From: Symbiobacterium thermophilum IAM 14863 | GTDB taxonomy: Bacteria > Bacillota > Sulfobacillia > Symbiobacteriales > Symbiobacteriaceae | Direction of reading: 5' to 3' | Assembly: GCF_000009905.1 (NCBI RefSeq) | Contig: NC_006177.1 | Location: 1,984,001 to 2,048,000 of the forward strand | DNA length: 64,000 bases | Notes under the pieces: generated by a model | Told to the model about the DNA's origin: nothing | Databases searched by the model: none | The model's input: only the letters and a program-made list of their open reading frames with translations | In this document: positions 2,562-48,075 of the stretch, piece by piece | How positions within the stretch are numbered: position 1 is the stretch's first letter | Layout: every line of letters starts with the position of its first letter | Translations under genes and position numbers: made by a program

Positions 2562-4508
2562 TCAGGTCTCCCCGTTGCCGGCCGCCTTCGCCCCGCTCAG
2601 CCGCCGCACGCTGCGGCTGCGCCGGGCCGGCTGCGCCGCCAGGTCGGAACGCATCCGGAGCAACAGCGCCTCGGCCCGCTGCGCCACGCCCTCCGGCGTG
2701 AGCCCGTAGCGTTCCAGGTACCGGGCCGGCTGGCCGTGATCCACAAACTCATCCGGAATGCCCATCCGCTCCACGCGGGCGTTCACCCCGTGGGCGGCGT
2801 ACAGCTCCAGGACGGCGGAACCGAAGCCCCCGGCAAGGCAGGCCTCCTCCACGGTCACCACCGCGCCCACCTCCCGGCCGGCCCGCAGCAGCAGCTCGGC
2901 GTCCAGGGGCTTGACGAACCGCGGGTTGATGACCATCGCGGAGATGGACTTCTCCGCCAGCAGGCGGGCGGCCTCCTGGCACACCCGGGCCATGGTGCCC
3001 AGGCCGATCAGCGCCACGTCGGCGCCCTCCTGCATCACCTCGCCCCGGCCGATGGGCAGCGGCTGCAGCGTCTCGTCCAGCGGCACCCCCTGCGCCTTGC
3101 CCCGGGGATAGCGCAGCGCCGCCGGGCCGTCGTGGCACAGCGCCGTATAGAGCATGTGCTGCAGCTCGTTTTCGTCCTTGGGCGCCATGACCACCATGTT
3201 GGGGATCGCCCGCAGGTACGCGACATCGAAGACGCCCTGGTGGGTCGCGCCGTCCTCCACCAGCCCACCCCGGTCAATGGCCAGGGTGACCGGCAGGTTC
3301 TGCAGGGCCACGTCGTGGATCACCTGGTCGTAGGCCCGCTGCAGGAAGGTGGAGTACACGGCGAAGACAGGCCGCATCCCGCCCTTGGCCAGGCCGGCCG
3401 CAAAGGTCACCGCGTGCTGCTCTGCGATGCCCACGTCGAAGTACCGGTCGGGGAACTGCCGGGCGAAGCGGCTGAGCCCGGTGCCGGAGGGCATCGCGGC
3501 CGTGATCGCGCACACCCGGGGATCCTCGGCCGCCAGCTTGCACATCACGTTGCCGAAGACCTCGCTGTAGGTCAGGCTGCCGGGCCCGGTCCGGCCGGTG
3601 GCGACGTCGAAGGGGCCGCCGCCGTGGAACTTGTCGGGCAGCTGCTCCGCGTAGGGCACCCCCTTGCCCTTGGTGGTGACCACGTGGACCACCGTCGGCC
3701 CGGGGTAGGCGCGCGCCTGGCGCAGCACGTCCACCAGGGCGCTCACGTTGTGCCCGTCCACGGGCCCCAGGTACGTGAAGCCCAGGTCCTCAAAGAACAT
3801 GTTGTGCACCAGCAGGTGCTTCACGCCCTCCTTCAGCCGGTCCGCCAGCTCCAGCGCCTGGGGGCCGATCAGCGGGATCTGCCGCAGGGCCTCGGCGACG
3901 TCGTGCTTGACCCGCTGGTAGGAGGGGCCGGTCCGGATACGGGCGAGGTAGTTGGAGATGCCGCCCACGTTGGGGGCGATGGACATGGAGTTGTCGTTGA
4001 GCACCACGATCACTTTGGTCTTGTCGTGGCCGGCGTGGTCCAGCGCCTCGTAGGCCATGCCGCCGGTCAGGGCGCCGTCGCCGATCACGGCGACCACCTC
4101 ATAGTCGTCGCCGGCGAGGTCGCGCGCCTTGGCCATGCCCACCGCCGCGGAAATGGAGGTGGAGGCATGGCCCCAGTGGAAGTGGTCATGGACCGACTCG
4201 CGCGGATCGGTGAAGCCGGCAATGCCGCCGAACTGACGCAGGGTATGGAACTGGTGCAGCCGTCCCGTAAGCAGCTTGTGCACGTAGCTCTGGTGCGACA
4301 CGTCCCAGAGGATCTTGTCCCGCGGGCTGTCGAACACGATGTGCAGTGCCAGCGTCAGCTCCACCACGCCCAGGTTGGGGGCGAGGTGACCGCCGTTGGT
4401 CGCCACCGTCTCCAGGATGACGCGCCGGATCTCGGCCGCCAGCTGGGCCAGCTCGGCGGGCGCCAGCCGCTTCAGCTGCTCCGGACCGGTCAGGTCCCGC
4501 AGGTGCAT
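2562..4508 (-). CDS. dxs: 1-deoxy-D-xylulose-5-phosphate synthase
   Basis: Condenses pyruvate and glyceraldehyde-3-phosphate to DXP, the first step of the MEP isoprenoid pathway, with thiamine diphosphate and Mg2+. 648 residues. The ThDP motif runs from [15 protein letters not shown] to LNDNSMS, the N-terminal [14 protein letters not shown] is present, and the transketolase central domain has [17 protein letters not shown]. The ATG at 4508 is chosen because GAAGGAGG lies upstream; the open frame runs further but overlaps oapA. The C-terminal tail ([14 protein letters not shown]) is basic. The gene lies in an operon with ispA, which uses the pathway product. Confidence 0.96.
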
Positions 4509-4510
4509 CG

Positions 4511-5116
4511 CTACGAGTTCCTCCTTCGCCCGTTGCTCCCGGAACGGCCGCCGGTGAAGGAGCGGCCGGTGATGTTCTCCGCCCAGTAGATGATCCGTCC
4601 GGCCGCCATGACGGCCGTCGTCGCATTCTCGATGGCAAACGACTTCCCCGCGGCCTTGCCGCCCACTGTCAGGCCGGAGATGACGCCGATGATGAGCAGC
4701 CCCAGGGCTTCCTCCACCCAACTGGCGCCCTGCATCATCCGCGCCAGCTTCATCGCGACGGTGGCACCGGCCGCGCCTGTGACGGCGCCGGCCACGTCGC
4801 CGACCACATCGTTGCAGAAGTTGGCGACGGCGTCCGCATTGCGCACCAGCCAGATCGCCTGTTTGGCGCCCGGCACCTTCTTGGCCGCCATGGAGTTGAG
4901 CGGCGGCAGCTCGGCGGCGGTGACGCTGGTGCCCAGGATGTCAAAGACGATGTTGACGGCGATCAGCAGCAGGACGATCACGAAGGCGATTATTGCATGT
5001 ACGCGGTGCAGCGCCAGGTTTGAACTCCAGTTGACGACGACGGCCAGCAGAAATGAGAGTAAGCCTACCCGGACGGCGCGGCGCCATCCTGGTATTGGAG
5101 GAGGTTCTTTCGCCAT
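4511..5116 (-). CDS. oapA: OLE-RNA-associated membrane protein (OapA-like)
   Basis: 201 residues. Hydrophobic segments lie at about 17-33, 42-62, 102-125 and 138-155, so it is a small multi-spanning membrane protein; the tail is Arg/Gly-rich. The sequence contains RAVR at 13-16 and DVVGD near 103, which fit the RxxR and DxxxD motifs I recall for the OapA family. It lies immediately between a large structured RNA and dxs, exactly the arrangement known for OLE RNA loci (ispA, ole, oapA, dxs). Family knowledge: OapA binds OLE RNA and brings it to the membrane. The assignment is by context, topology and motifs. The ribosome binding site (AGGAG) is rather distant from the ATG. Confidence 0.8.
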
Positions 5117-5248
5117 GTTTGCCAGACGCTCCTGAAGGACAGACTACGGGTGGTGCACCCCGAAAGGATGCACGCGCCCCCCGATCCGAGTGGTCATTTC
5201 GATACTACCATACCATCTATTGGGCCACAACGCCAGGGGCCCGAAGGG

Positions 5249-5279
5249 AAAAAGGCGGATACCCAAATGGGTACCCGCC
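5249..5279 (-). terminator. Rho-independent terminator after the OLE-type RNA
   Basis: Read leftward, GGCGGGTACCC-ATT-TGGGTATCCGCC forms a long stem followed directly by TTTTT. It would define the 3' end of the structured RNA. It lies before oapA and dxs, so expression of those genes from upstream promoters requires readthrough. Confidence 0.85.
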
Positions 5280-5956
5280 CCCGCGTATACATAAAATTAT
5301 GGGTGGCAGCCTGGCAAGTAAATCTTGTGGCTTAGGTCCAGCAGGATTTCCCCAGGGCCTCCGCAGCGTCGCCGCCACGGCGGTTTCCCTTTATGGCCCA
5401 GCTGCCGTGTCGCCACCGGCAGGGCTGGATTACCACTTAGACCACACTACAATCCTTGCCAGACCTCTTTCGAGCAGCCTAGGAATTTTCTTCGACAACA
5501 CACCTTTTCCTAGCCTCTTTTGCAGGCGTGGTTTCAGCTTCCATCGCCCCCGCCCTCAGCTGGCCGGCGTCCGGCAGGGGTTACCGGGCCATTACGCCCA
5601 CGGTCGCATCCGCCACGCCCACTCAAGGCAGGCTACGCTGCACCCAGCACCTCACCATGTTTCGGTACCGCATGCAGGTCTACACTGCACCGCAGCCGCA
5701 TCGCTCACATTGGCGCGACCGCCGCGCGTGCAGGCCTCCACGGAAGGAGGGTCGGGGCCCGCATGCCGTTGCGGGTCGCCCTCAATCCGGCAGCGTCGGA
5801 CCAGAACGGCCCGGTTCGCTGAATCCCCAGCACCAACCCCCGATTGGGCATCGGCGGCCAGCACCAGAGACGTCATCGAATGTGCCCTTTGCGGATTTTT
5901 AGGCCCGCCTTCGGAAAAGGTAGTACTGACTAGGATACTGCGCCACCCATAATCCG
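5254..5956 (-). ncRNA. ole: OLE RNA (ornate large extremophilic RNA), probable
   Basis: An 885-bp gap between ispA and the oapA-like gene contains no credible protein gene, but it shows a large RNA architecture on the leftward strand. The ends pair over about 650 nt: ATTATGGGTGG...CAG (5953-5938) with CTG-CCACCCATAAT (5310-5296). Inside lie a nested domain closed by CTGGCAAG (5462-5455) and CTTGCCAG (5318-5311), continuing through TGTGG/CCACA and CCAGC/GCTGG, and a further hairpin arm CTAGGAA/TTCCTAG (about 5512-5479). A U-tailed terminator follows. Size (about 600-700 nt), position between ispA and oapA-dxs, and elaborate pairing match OLE RNA of extremophilic Firmicutes. I have no covariance-model score. 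The ispA stop is only about 46 nt upstream, so the RNA is probably processed from an operon transcript. Confidence 0.78.
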
Positions 5957-6001
5957 CGATCATGAGTGACTCGCTTCGTCACCAAACGATGATAGCACCC
6001 G

Positions 6002-6895
6002 TCAGGCGACGCGGTCAACCACAGATTCTGCCAAGGCCCTGAGCACCCAGCCCGCTCCGCCGAAGGGCTCCAGCTCCTCCAGCGCCAGTCGGACGGCCTG
6101 GTAGGCGCGCTCGCGCGCGCCTTCCACGCCGTGCAGGGTGACGTAGGTGGACTTGTCCAGCCGGGCGTCGCGGCCGACGCCCTTCCCCGTCAGGGCGGCG
6201 TCGCCGGTCACGTCCAGCACGTCGTCCCAGATCTGGAAGGCAAGCCCGAAGTGCGTCGCGTAGCGCCCCAGCCGGTCCAGGTCCTCCTCGCCTGCACCGG
6301 CGAGGATGCCGCCCATACGCACGGCGGCGCGGAACAGCGCGCCGGTCTTCAGGGAGTGGATCCGCCTGAGCTGCGGTTCGTCCGCCTGGCGGCCCTCCCA
6401 CGCCAAGTCCTCCACCTGCCCGCCGACCATGCCCTCGGCTCCCGCGGCGTGGGCGAGCTCCGCGGCAGCCCGCACCGCGCGCGCCGGCCCGACGCGCGGG
6501 ACGGCTGCCTGCTCGGCCATCAGCGCGAAGGCCTGGGTGAGCAGCGCGTCCCCCGCGAGCACAGCCATGGCCTCGCCGTAGACCTTGTGGCAGGTGGGAC
6601 GGCCCCGGCGCAGGTCGTCGTCGTCCATGCAGGGCAGGTCGTCGTGGATGAGCGAGTAGGTGTGAATCATCTCCAGGGCGCAGGCGCCGGGCATCACGTC
6701 GGCCGCCTCCAGACCGAAGAGCTCGGACGCGGCAATGGTCAGGATCGGCCGGAGCCGCTTGCCTCCGGCAAGGAGGCTGTACCGCATGGCCTCCACCAGC
6801 CGGGAAGGCGCGTCGAGCCCGGCGGTGTACCGGTCCAGCGCCGCCTCCACCTGCTGCCGCCGCGCGGCCATGTACTGCTGAAACTCGCCCCTCAA
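6002..6895 (-). CDS. ispA: Polyprenyl (farnesyl) diphosphate synthase
   Basis: Head-to-tail condensation of IPP with DMAPP or GPP to make farnesyl (or geranylgeranyl) diphosphate. 297 residues. The first aspartate-rich motif is HDDLPCMDDDD at 84-94, followed by RRGRPTCHKVYGEAMA; the second, WDDVLDV, lies near residue 222. GGKRLRP near 44-50 binds the diphosphate. The residue before the first motif suggests a short-chain product. It follows xseB by 18 nt and precedes the OLE-type RNA, in the common Firmicute order xseA, xseB, ispA, dxs. Confidence 0.95.
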   Translation of the reverse strand: MRGEFQQYMAARRQQVEAALDRYTAGLDAPSRLVEAMRYSLLAGGKRLRPILTIAASELFGLEAADVMPGACALEMIHTYSLIHDDLPCMDDDDLRRGRPTCHKVYGEAMAVLAGDALLTQAFALMAEQAAVPRVGPARAVRAAAELAHAAGAEGMVGGQVEDLAWEGRQADEPQLRRIHSLKTGALFRAAVRMGGILAGAGEEDLDRLGRYATHFGLAFQIWDDVLDVTGDAALTGKGVGRDARLDKSTYVTLHGVEGARERAYQAVRLALEELEPFGGAGWVLRALAESVVDRVA

Positions 6896-27679: not shown

Positions 27680-28205
27680 GGAGATCTTGACTTTGCTCGT
27701 GGGCCAGGTGAAAGTTCGTCGGAGTTCCCCGGCGGTCCGCCTGCGGATTCCCCCTGGCGGCTTCAACAGGTCACGTCGCGAGCCACACTTGCGACAGACG
27801 TGCACTTCGTCCGCGGGCCAAGTGAAAGTTCGTCGTACTTCCCCTGCGGCCCGCCCGCGGATTTCCCCCTCGCGGCTTCAACAAGTCCCGTGGCGAGCCA
27901 CACCTACGACCAACTTGCACTTCGCCCACAGGCCAAGTGAAAGTTCGTCGTACTTCCCCTGCGGCCCGCCCGCCGATCCCCCCTGGCGGCTTCAACACGT
28001 CACGTAGCGAGCCACACCTGCGACCAACTTACACTTCGCCCGTGGGCCAAGTGAAAGTTCGTCGTACTTCCCCGGCTGCCCGAATGGCATTCACCTCTTG
28101 ACGGGCTCGTCCTACTTCCATCGTTGGGGCTCCTGTGGGTTGACCTCTCGTGGCTTCAACGAGTCCAACGTTGGGTCACACCTACGACAGATCTACGCTT
28201 GCCCC
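27680..28205. repeat. 114-bp tandem array with palindromic core
   Basis: GTGAAAGTTCGTCG starts at 27708, 27822, 27937 and 28051, giving periods of 114, 115 and 114. A diverged fifth unit follows to about 28205, and a partial unit precedes the first. Each unit carries a 44-nt imperfect palindrome, for example CGACCAACTTACACTT (28021) facing AAGTGAAAGTTCGTCG (28049-28064) around CGCCC/GGGC, plus a conserved GGCTTCAACA segment and GCGAGCCACAC. Reading frames shift between units, so it is not a protein repeat. Lies between the DUF5694-like gene and kbl. Confidence 0.85.
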
Positions 28206-45360: not shown

Positions 45361-46020
45361 CCGTCACGCGCAAAACCTGAACCGCCTCCCCGAGTCCGGG
45401 TGCAGATTCTGCGCGTGCCTCCCCTTCTGCCCCGGCGCTCCCGCGCAAAACCTGAACCGCCCACCCGAGCCCGGGTGCAGATTTTGCGCGTGCCTCCCCT
45501 TCTGCCCCGGCGCTCCCGCGCAAAACCTGAACCGCCTCCCCGAGCCCGGGTGCAAATTTTGCGCGTGTCCCCCCTTCTGCCCCGGCGCTCCCGCGCAAAA
45601 CCTGAACCGCCTCCCCGAGCCCGGGTGCAGATTTTGCGCGTGTCCCCCCCTCTGCCCCGGCGCTCCCGCGCAAAACCTGAACCGCCTCCCCGAGCCCGGG
45701 TGCAGATTTTGCGCGTGTCCCCCCTCTGCCCCGGCGCTCCCGCGCAAAACCTGAACCGCCCACCCGAACCCGGGTGCAGATTCTGCGCGTGTCCCCCCCT
45801 CTGCCCCGGCGCTCCCGCGCAAAACCTGAACCGCCTCCCCGAGCCCGGGTGCAAATTTTGCGCGTGTCCCCCCCTCTGCCCCGGCGCTCCCGCGCAAAAC
45901 CTGAACCGCCCACCCGAGCCCGGGTGCAGATTCTGCGCGTGTCCCCCTTCTGCCCCGGTGCTCCCGCGCAAAACCTGAACCGCCTCCCCGAGCCCGGGTG
46001 CAGATTCTGCGCGCCGACCC
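45361..46020. repeat. 75-bp tandem array, nine copies
   Basis: GCGCAAAACCTGAACC starts at 45368, 45443, 45518, 45593, 45668, 45742, 45817, 45892 and 45966, a period of 74-75 bp. Each unit contains a palindrome: GCGCAAAA at one end and TTTTGCGC (or TTCTGCGC) about 40 nt later, with inner CTG/CAG and ACC/GGT pairs, then CCCCTCTGCCCCGGCGCTCC. Because 75 is divisible by three, long open frames run through both strands; these are artefacts of the repeat. It fills the gap between the DUF6504-like gene and dnaE2 in the mutasome cluster. The remaining flank (46021-46200) has no gene. Confidence 0.9.
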
Positions 46021-46455: not shown

Positions 46456-48075
46456 TCACGCCTTTCGGGACCAGCGGTAGGGGTCGGCGTACTGGAGCAT
46501 CTGCTCACGCCAGGAGGTCGGGGTATGCATCCCCAGGCCGATCACCCGCGCCGGGAAGCGCTGGTGCAGCAGGGACAGCGCCCCCTCGATCCGCTCCCGC
46601 CGCTCCCGGAGCAGCCGGTCGTCCCACAGCTCCATCTGCCGCCAGTCGACGGGGCCGATCAGCCCCACCTCGGCGGTGACCGCCGCCACCTCCACCGACT
46701 CCCTGAGGCCGTCCAGCAACTGGGTGAGCAGGGCGTGCAGCCCCTGCTGGATCGGGTAGGCGGTGTGCCGCAGCCGGGGCAAAGTCCGCTCGGCGTGCAG
46801 CACCCGGCCGTCGGCCAGCTCCAGGATCAGCCCAACCTGTTGGCAGCCCTCGCCCCGCCGGTCCAGCTGGGCGGCCAGCAGGGCGGCCGAGCGGCTCAGT
46901 TCCCGCTCCAGCGGATCCCGGTCCCGCACGCCGCCCAGCTCCGACCGCCGCGCCAGCCGTCGGGGCGGCCAGGCGGGCTTCACCGGCTCCGGATCGATGC
47001 CCCGGCTCCAACGGGAGATCTGCCGCCCCTGCAGCCCCAGTTGCCGCGCCCATTCGTCCTCGCTCACCCGCGCCGCCTCGCCGATGCGTGTGATCCCCAA
47101 CTGCTGCAGCCGGCGCTGCACCTCGGGCGGAAGCGGCAGGAAGGTGACGGGCAGCGGGGCGAGAAAGCGGGCCTCGGCGCCGGGGGAAACGATGGCGATC
47201 CGCACGGCCGGGCCTTCCAGCCGGCGCACGCCAGCGCGCCGGCCGGCATCCTCCCGGCCGCCTTCCGGCCGTCCGATGGCAAGTCCGCCCGCGTGCCGGC
47301 TGCCTATCCCCCCGCCGCCCGCCTGACGGGGGGCGATCACCTGCGCGCCCTCCAGCCGCTGCGGGGCCGTGCCGGGCCGCCACTCCAGGAACTCCGCCCG
47401 CAGGGCCCGTGCCGCCGCACGGGCGACCACGCGGGAGGAACCGGCGCCTGCGAAGGCGGCGAAGCCAAAGGACGCGGCCGCCTCCGCCAGCGCCTTCAAC
47501 TCCGCCTGCAGCCGCCGGTCCGCCGCCTGCCTCCGGCCGCCTTCCGCGCCCTGCGCCCGGCCGCCCGGAGCCCATCCACCCGGAGCCCATCCACCCGGAG
47601 CCCATCCGCCCGGAGCCCATCCGCCCGGAGCCCGGCCGCCCGGAGCCCGACCGCCCGGAGCCCATCCGCCCGGAGCCCATCCGCCTGGAGCCCATCCGCC
47701 TGGAGCCCATCCACCCGGAGCCCATCCGCCCGGCAGGCCGTCCGGATCGTCGGGCAGGGGCAGCCCCAAAAGCGCCTGGTGCGGCTCCACCGGCTCGACG
47801 TAGGGCGTGTGGGCGAGGCAGCGGTCCCAGAAGGCACGGGCCCGGGCGGTGGCGTCCACATCCGCCCACTCCACCACGGTTGCCCCCGGGACGTCGCACA
47901 GCACCTGGCGGGCGGGGCTGCCCAGCCGCAGCCCCGCCGCAAAAGCCTCGCGGCAGCCGTCGAAGACCCGCCCCCCGCGCAGGACCACGACCGGACGTTC
48001 GGCCTCTGCCAGCCCCGCCTCCCGGGCGGCCGCGGCGTAGAGGCCCTGAATCTCCACCCAGCAGATCCATCGCAT
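46456..48075 (-). CDS. imuB: ImuB-like Y-family polymerase homologue, catalytically degenerate
   Basis: 539 residues; ATG behind GGAGGG. Y-family layout: palm start ICWVEIQGLYAAAAREAGL (catalytic Asp replaced by Glu), and YVEPVEPHQALLGLP where active enzymes have SIDE, so the second acidic pair is lost. Then 12 copies of APGGW/APGGR (residues 115-174), the thumb with VQRRLQQLGITRIGEAARV and QGRQISRWSRGIDPEPVKP, and a little-finger-like C-terminus. ImuB acts as a clamp-linked bridge between ImuC and the fork. A LexA box lies upstream. No ImuA/RecA-like gene is seen here. Confidence 0.85.
   Translation of the reverse strand: MRWICWVEIQGLYAAAAREAGLAEAERPVVVLRGGRVFDGCREAFAAGLRLGSPARQVLCDVPGATVVEWADVDATARARAFWDRCLAHTPYVEPVEPHQALLGLPLPDDPDGLPGGWAPGGWAPGGWAPGGWAPGGWAPGGRAPGGRAPGGWAPGGWAPGGWAPGGWAPGGRAQGAEGGRRQAADRRLQAELKALAEAAASFGFAAFAGAGSSRVVARAAARALRAEFLEWRPGTAPQRLEGAQVIAPRQAGGGGIGSRHAGGLAIGRPEGGREDAGRRAGVRRLEGPAVRIAIVSPGAEARFLAPLPVTFLPLPPEVQRRLQQLGITRIGEAARVSEDEWARQLGLQGRQISRWSRGIDPEPVKPAWPPRRLARRSELGGVRDRDPLERELSRSAALLAAQLDRRGEGCQQVGLILELADGRVLHAERTLPRLRHTAYPIQQGLHALLTQLLDGLRESVEVAAVTAEVGLIGPVDWRQMELWDDRLLRERRERIEGALSLLHQRFPARVIGLGMHTPTSWREQMLQYADPYRWSRKA
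47554..47733 (-). repeat. 15-bp x12 repeat encoding APGGW
   Basis: Twelve copies of a 15-bp unit (CGGAGCCCATCCACC and variants on the + strand) encode APGGW with three APGGR. It sits in frame inside the ImuB-like gene, right after the strand that would carry the catalytic acid pair. Copy-number changes would keep the frame. Confidence 0.95.

Follow-up and report, generated by a model that had tools for sequence, protein, structure and literature searches.

OLE is a giant bacterial RNA that is seated in the membrane together with its partner proteins. Among conserved bacterial RNAs without a known biochemical function it ranks with the largest, and it possibly traverses the membrane.

Several described features of OLE provide the context for the locus reported here. 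Helix P3 has been proposed as a membrane-spanning stem (PMC12265935), and the binding site of the partner protein OapC has been placed at two different k-turns: k-turn 1a, formed by J4a/5 with J5/6 (PMC9723947), and k-turn 1b, formed by J4a/5 with J6/7 (PMC12286853). The two are mutually exclusive, and PMC12054373 keeps both. A likeness to CNNM proteins has been published for the H. halodurans OapA; the MpfA family usually anticorrelates with OLE and tends to replace it, and OapC and OapB occur also in species without OLE (PMC11332333). Two departures from the consensus, OLE variants 1 and 2, were described by Fernando and Breaker 2024 (PMC11332333).

The ole locus of Symbiobacterium thermophilum

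The Rfam OLE model (RF01071) covers the whole gap between ispA and oapA in the window, by which we mean the entire 64-kb stretch of S. thermophilum DNA that was analysed. The match lies at 5962-5287 on the minus strand, spans model positions 1-616 of 616, and scores 456.5 bits (E 8.4e-131), far above the gathering score of 50. The first-pass annotation had proposed a large structured RNA on the minus strand, probably OLE, between ispA and an OapA-like gene in an isoprenoid operon, and had named a search with this model as the check; the search upholds the proposal, as do the folding energy of 5990-5245 (-365 kcal/mol, z = -7.8 against dinucleotide shuffles) and the positions of ispA upstream and of oapA and dxs downstream. 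Of its bounds, 5249 is the end of the terminator U run, and 5956 lies a few nucleotides short of the Rfam 5' end at 5962. OLE is the sole Rfam match at the gathering score within the window, and there is a single copy in the 3,566,135-bp genome. The features of the locus are:

6002-6895, minus strand: ispA, farnesyl diphosphate synthase (NF045485, 353 bits, cut-off 275)
5989-6018, minus strand: promoter-like site of ole, overlapping the last ispA codons
5287-5962, minus strand: OLE RNA (ole), full-length RF01071 match
5249-5279, minus strand: intrinsic terminator, recognised from sequence, fold and a script
4511-5116, minus strand: oapA, encoding the 201-aa membrane protein OapA (profile match)
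2562-4505, minus strand: dxs, 1-deoxy-D-xylulose-5-phosphate synthase (TIGR00204, 839 bits)

The minus-strand order is asp23-like, nusB, folD, xseA, xseB, ispA, ole, oapA, dxs and tlyA, with argR just beyond the left edge of the window, and this neighbourhood resembles the ole clusters of PMC12265935. OLE was found in 56 of the 61 genomes searched (S. thermophilum and its relatives), and an OapA-related ORF lies directly downstream in 110 of 120 OLE loci. One class relative (L063, G018:C206:8089-8506) has a partial match near a contig end, to model positions 279-595 with a weak match to 191-277, and represents either a truncated assembly or a reduced OLE. In all likelihood the S. thermophilum RNA is one of the 2,822 matches of PMC11332333; in our literature search, which covered sources other than survey supplements, we found no mention of OLE in Symbiobacterium and no description of the J5/6 insertion presented below.

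Long mechanical open reading frames overlap ole (299 aa on the plus strand and 103 aa on the minus strand), and the region could on that account be read as protein-coding. This reading has next to no probability, since the frames do not stay open in other genomes of the Symbiobacteriaceae, the substitutions by phase (14/19/18 and 26/23/26) show no codon periodicity, and such ORFs are frequent in GC-rich DNA; on the first two of these grounds we reject a protein-coding origin of ole. A phage origin was likewise rejected, there being no match in phages.

The promoter-like site consists of a -35 sequence TTGACC (6018-6013, in the last ispA codons), an 18-nt gap and an extended -10 sequence TG-C-TATCAT (5994-5989), with a predicted transcript start near 5983. 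The arrangement TTGACC-18-TATGAT with the TG is kept in three Symbiobacteriaceae relatives, and for 80 of 116 OLEs a comparable site is found no more than 110 nt upstream, where shuffles would lead one to expect 16.7. The -10 of these sites mostly ends 20-30 nt ahead of the GUAU anchor, which would put the start at P1 or slightly ahead of it. An own promoter has been reported for H. halodurans ole (PMC9723947), so that the sites seen across OLEs generalise a known fact.

Between ole and oapA is the strong terminator remarked on in the first pass, an 11-bp hairpin (5279-5254) followed by U5 (5253-5249), which a separate script scores at -21 kcal/mol. A generic terminator scanner made no call for the hairpin at 5279-5249, probably because the scanner lengthens the stem with G-U pairs that reach into the U run. 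The terminator is kept in both other Symbiobacterium genomes. Its presence, together with the position upstream of oapA, would suit a cis-acting leader or attenuator that controls oapA only and yields no free RNA. We consider such a leader very improbable: a comparable terminator occurs in only 14 of 120 OLE loci and is thus not a feature of the class, while the RNA has a closed P1, its own promoter-like site and covariation throughout, and in H. halodurans OLE exists as a separate RNA of high abundance (PMC9723947). In the preferred reading, of ole as a gene for a free RNA, an own promoter overlapping the end of ispA would drive its transcription, perhaps with read-through from the isoprenoid operon as a second source, and the transcript would end at the terminator ahead of oapA. 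The ole-oapA spacer includes a block at 5140-5215, GGTATGGTAGTATCG, that is conserved among the Symbiobacterium genomes and is possibly a separate oapA promoter following the terminator.

The protein encoded downstream of ole is OapA itself rather than merely OapA-like: it matches a profile built from 68 other OLE-adjacent Bacillota proteins at 4.9e-64 and has the DxxxD motif, of which D103 and D107 are invariant across 59 OapA proteins. Its AlphaFold2 model (pLDDT 88) superimposes on the CNNM transmembrane domain of MtCorB with Z 13.4 and rmsd 2.4 over 129 residues, the next unrelated row having Z 8.6, and OapA is thus predicted to have a CNNM-like membrane fold. Only the fold comparison found this relative; phmmer against PDB sequences gave no match, and the Pfam CNNM score of 21.7 bits is below the 28.4-bit cut-off. 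An OapB gene is present, with a match to PDB 7k9b ('OLE-associated protein B') at 3.3e-11; it has no Pfam match at 0.001, and its identification came from gene position and the PDB search. The OapC gene product matches the YbxF/L7Ae-like entries 3v7e and 4lck at about 1.6e-17 and YlxQ (3v7q) at only 0.005, and so is nearer to YbxF than to its paralogue YlxQ. Genes for bS21 and ArgR are also found in the genome. The presence of OapC and OapB genes is no proof of binding, since both occur without OLE (PMC11332333). A full MpfA-like protein with CNNM, CBS and CorC domains (L043:850-2208, genome about 1074849-1076207) coexists with OLE and OapA, in contrast to the anticorrelation usual for this family.

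Elsewhere in the window there are three tandem arrays. That at 45367-46013 has about 8.7 copies of a 75-bp unit (94% match), each unit beginning with GCGCAAAACCTG and containing CAGATTTTGCGC, which form an inverted repeat within every unit. A 15-bp unit, CCGCCCGGAGCCCAT, whose length is a multiple of three, is repeated 11.5 times at 47561-47733 among long ORFs, and a 114-bp unit is present in 3.5 copies (86% match) at 27686-28082.

Conserved structure of the RNA

Covariation was assessed in 120 distinct OLE sequences, with slid strands as the control. The elements referred to here, located by covariation (helices P1 and P3/P3.1) or by alignment of the 120 OLEs (the remainder), are:

5942-5953, minus strand: P1 5' strand, AUUAUGGGUGGC
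5296-5307, minus strand: P1 3' strand, GCCACCCAUAAU
5913-5928, minus strand: P3/P3.1 5' strand, 88% paired against 41-48% slid
5496-5510, minus strand: P3/P3.1 3' strand
5845-5849, minus strand: L5.1 loop GCCCA, kissing partner of L6.1
5764-5769, minus strand: L6.1 loop ACGGCA
5562-5565, minus strand: L9.3 GGCC palindrome, the symmetric dimer kissing loop
5360-5381, minus strand: P13 hairpin with a CGGCGAC loop

P1 is a 12-bp helix joining 5953-5942 with 5307-5296, and its strands, about 650 nt apart, are the paired ends that the first-pass annotation had noticed. Pairing is found in 81% of its cells, compared with 44% when slid, and 11 of its 12 pairs have two-sided changes. Two-sided, compensatory changes are likewise seen in P2, P3, P3.1 and most Rfam helices; the distal tip of P9 and part of P12/P13 align poorly (46-76% paired). 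P3 has 15 bp in S. thermophilum and 13-16 bp in most OLEs, and its 5' strand measures 18-20 nt in 119 of the 120, while the lengths of P7, P8 and P9 vary widely. As judged from the alignment, the constant length of P3 agrees with the proposal that it spans the membrane (PMC12265935), without proving it.

The S. thermophilum sequence appears to carry all of the known dimer contacts. L4 is an A-rich loop (CCUAAAAAU), the GCC of L5.1 and the GGC of L6.1 are complementary in 120/120 OLEs, and the GGCC of L9.3 is found here as in most OLEs. The P13 loop, in the region described in the literature as binding OapB, follows the pattern GG(C/U)(G/A)AC in no fewer than 111 of 120 OLEs, and the CGGCGAC loop of S. 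thermophilum would provide this OapB-binding feature. The 3' strand of P6 (5744-5750, minus strand) reads CCUCCUU, the usual 16S anti-Shine-Dalgarno core. CCUCCU is present within P6 in just three of the 120 OLEs (S. thermophilum, L044 and L100), so the published bS21 anti-Shine-Dalgarno mimic is not general among OLEs and was rejected as a feature of the class.

The J5/6 hairpin and the site of OapC

An insertion at J5/6 is the only unusual part of an otherwise textbook OLE locus. The three strands concerned are:

5873-5878, minus strand: J4a/5 k-turn strand CGAUGA, common to 1a and 1b (alignment, 120 OLEs)
5791-5821, minus strand: inserted J5/6 hairpin, displacing the AAGG of k-turn 1a (Rfam model, MAFFT)
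5736-5739, minus strand: J6/7 k-turn 1b strand GGAG (alignment, 120 OLEs)

The inserted hairpin is present in five of the 120 OLEs, all from the Symbiobacteriaceae (S. thermophilum and four other family genomes, G001-G004, of which G001 and G002 are of the same genus), and is 30-33 nt long across the family. It sits exactly at the UU/AAGG border after P5 and substitutes for the AAGG, a placement given identically and independently by the Rfam model and by MAFFT. In each of the five carriers the insertion folds into a hairpin, with the stem preserved through compensatory changes (CAGC/GCUG, CGGC/GCCG and CGGUC/GACCG). We sought a k-turn inside it and rejected the idea; the internal loops have no tandem G-A pair, and the hairpin is therefore unlike a replacement k-turn site.

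A family-specific insertion might be taken as a sign that the locus is a remnant of OLE that has decayed and lost its function, as might the MpfA-like CNNM/CBS/CorC protein in the genome, a member of the family that tends to replace OLE (PMC11332333). Such decay is extremely improbable, as the conserved blocks, dimer loops, P13 loop and k-turn 1b motif are all intact, as is oapA, and the RNA is 77-92% identical to those of family members, in which the inserted stem itself is maintained by compensation. The identity of the RNA, the conservation of its structure, the gene order, the partner genes and the J5/6 insertion were computed directly here, and we conclude with high confidence that the locus is intact and encodes an OLE ribonucleoprotein of the ordinary kind.

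The motif of k-turn 1b is intact in 117 of the 120 OLEs, including that of S. thermophilum (CGAUGA and GGAG), and that of k-turn 1a is present in 87 in its strict form and 106 in a relaxed form. K-turn 1a is thus a proposed state and not a defining feature of the OLE class; its residues (J4a/5 with the AAGG of J5/6) are absent from S. thermophilum, which has the hairpin instead. In one OLE (L013), the single such case, a C-G to G-C swap between J4a/5 and J6/7 compensates 1b and breaks 1a. OapC is encoded in every tested genome without the 1a residues (G003, G004, G007, G022, G042 and G057). Because 1b is so widely kept, J5/6 is replaced and OapC is retained, the sequence comparison favours k-turn 1b as the site generally used by OapC; 1a would be optional, or confined to OLEs of the H. 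halodurans type.

Alternatively, OapC could still bind at k-turn 1a in the Symbiobacteriaceae, the hairpin being tolerated inside the junction or melted. This would fit the H. halodurans probing with OapC and bS21 (PMC9723947, PMC12054373), and the genus Symbiobacterium has a CAG after P5 (L001, L018 and L022) that could nominally supply the A and G of 1a, yet these are paired within the inserted hairpin. In L026 and L044 the corresponding sequence is CGG, in which the needed A is lost and the hairpin pairing kept; opposite A90 all five Symbiobacteriaceae OLEs have a C, and AAGG has been lost in several other lineages too. We therefore regard binding at 1a as unlikely. A plausible scenario, towards which we lean, is that the Symbiobacteriaceae OLE is a natural k-turn 1a deletion in which OapC (with bS21) acts through 1b alone, and that 1a is not a required state; OapC would most likely sit at J4a/5 with J6/7, since a hairpin takes the place of the J5/6 that 1a requires.

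By analogy with H. halodurans, the RNA closed by P1 would bind the membrane protein OapA together with bS21, OapB (through P13) and OapC (through a k-turn), and the resulting membrane-bound ribonucleoprotein would serve stress and Mg2+ homeostasis. It is on these grounds that we infer transcription, protein binding, a membrane location and a stress function for the S. thermophilum RNA. Taken as a whole, the locus is very probably a complete and functional ole gene with its own promoter, whose product forms a membrane ribonucleoprotein with OapC most likely at k-turn 1b. The expectation in the first pass of a variant useful for structure work has proved sound: the precise position of the insertion, in J5/6 of a GC-rich OLE, sets apart the two k-turn models left open by PMC12054373. 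The insertion is a useful natural test and not a new kind of system; a further use of this OLE may be as a stable RNA with which cryo-EM could resolve the unseen domain 2.

Comparison with described OLE systems

The S. thermophilum OLE shares with those of H. halodurans and C. acetobutylicum the whole consensus, the architecture, the dimer loops, k-turn 1b and the P13 loop, as well as the ole-oapA order and, probably, an own promoter. It differs in its length (676 nt against about 600), in the 31-nt J5/6 hairpin that stands in place of AAGG, and in the 7-nt anti-Shine-Dalgarno-like match CCUCCUU in P6, which most OLEs do not have. The S. thermophilum OapA has the DxxxD motif of OapA proteins and, like their distant relatives among CNNM-domain proteins such as MtCorB and MpfA, a CNNM-like fold of the membrane domain; it has no CBS or CorC domains. 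With OLE variants 1 and 2 (PMC11332333) the Symbiobacteriaceae OLE has in common that lineage-specific changes are set upon a conserved core; however, those variants reflect losses (of P7-P9 and of the end of P13), whereas the Symbiobacteriaceae OLE represents a gain in J5/6.
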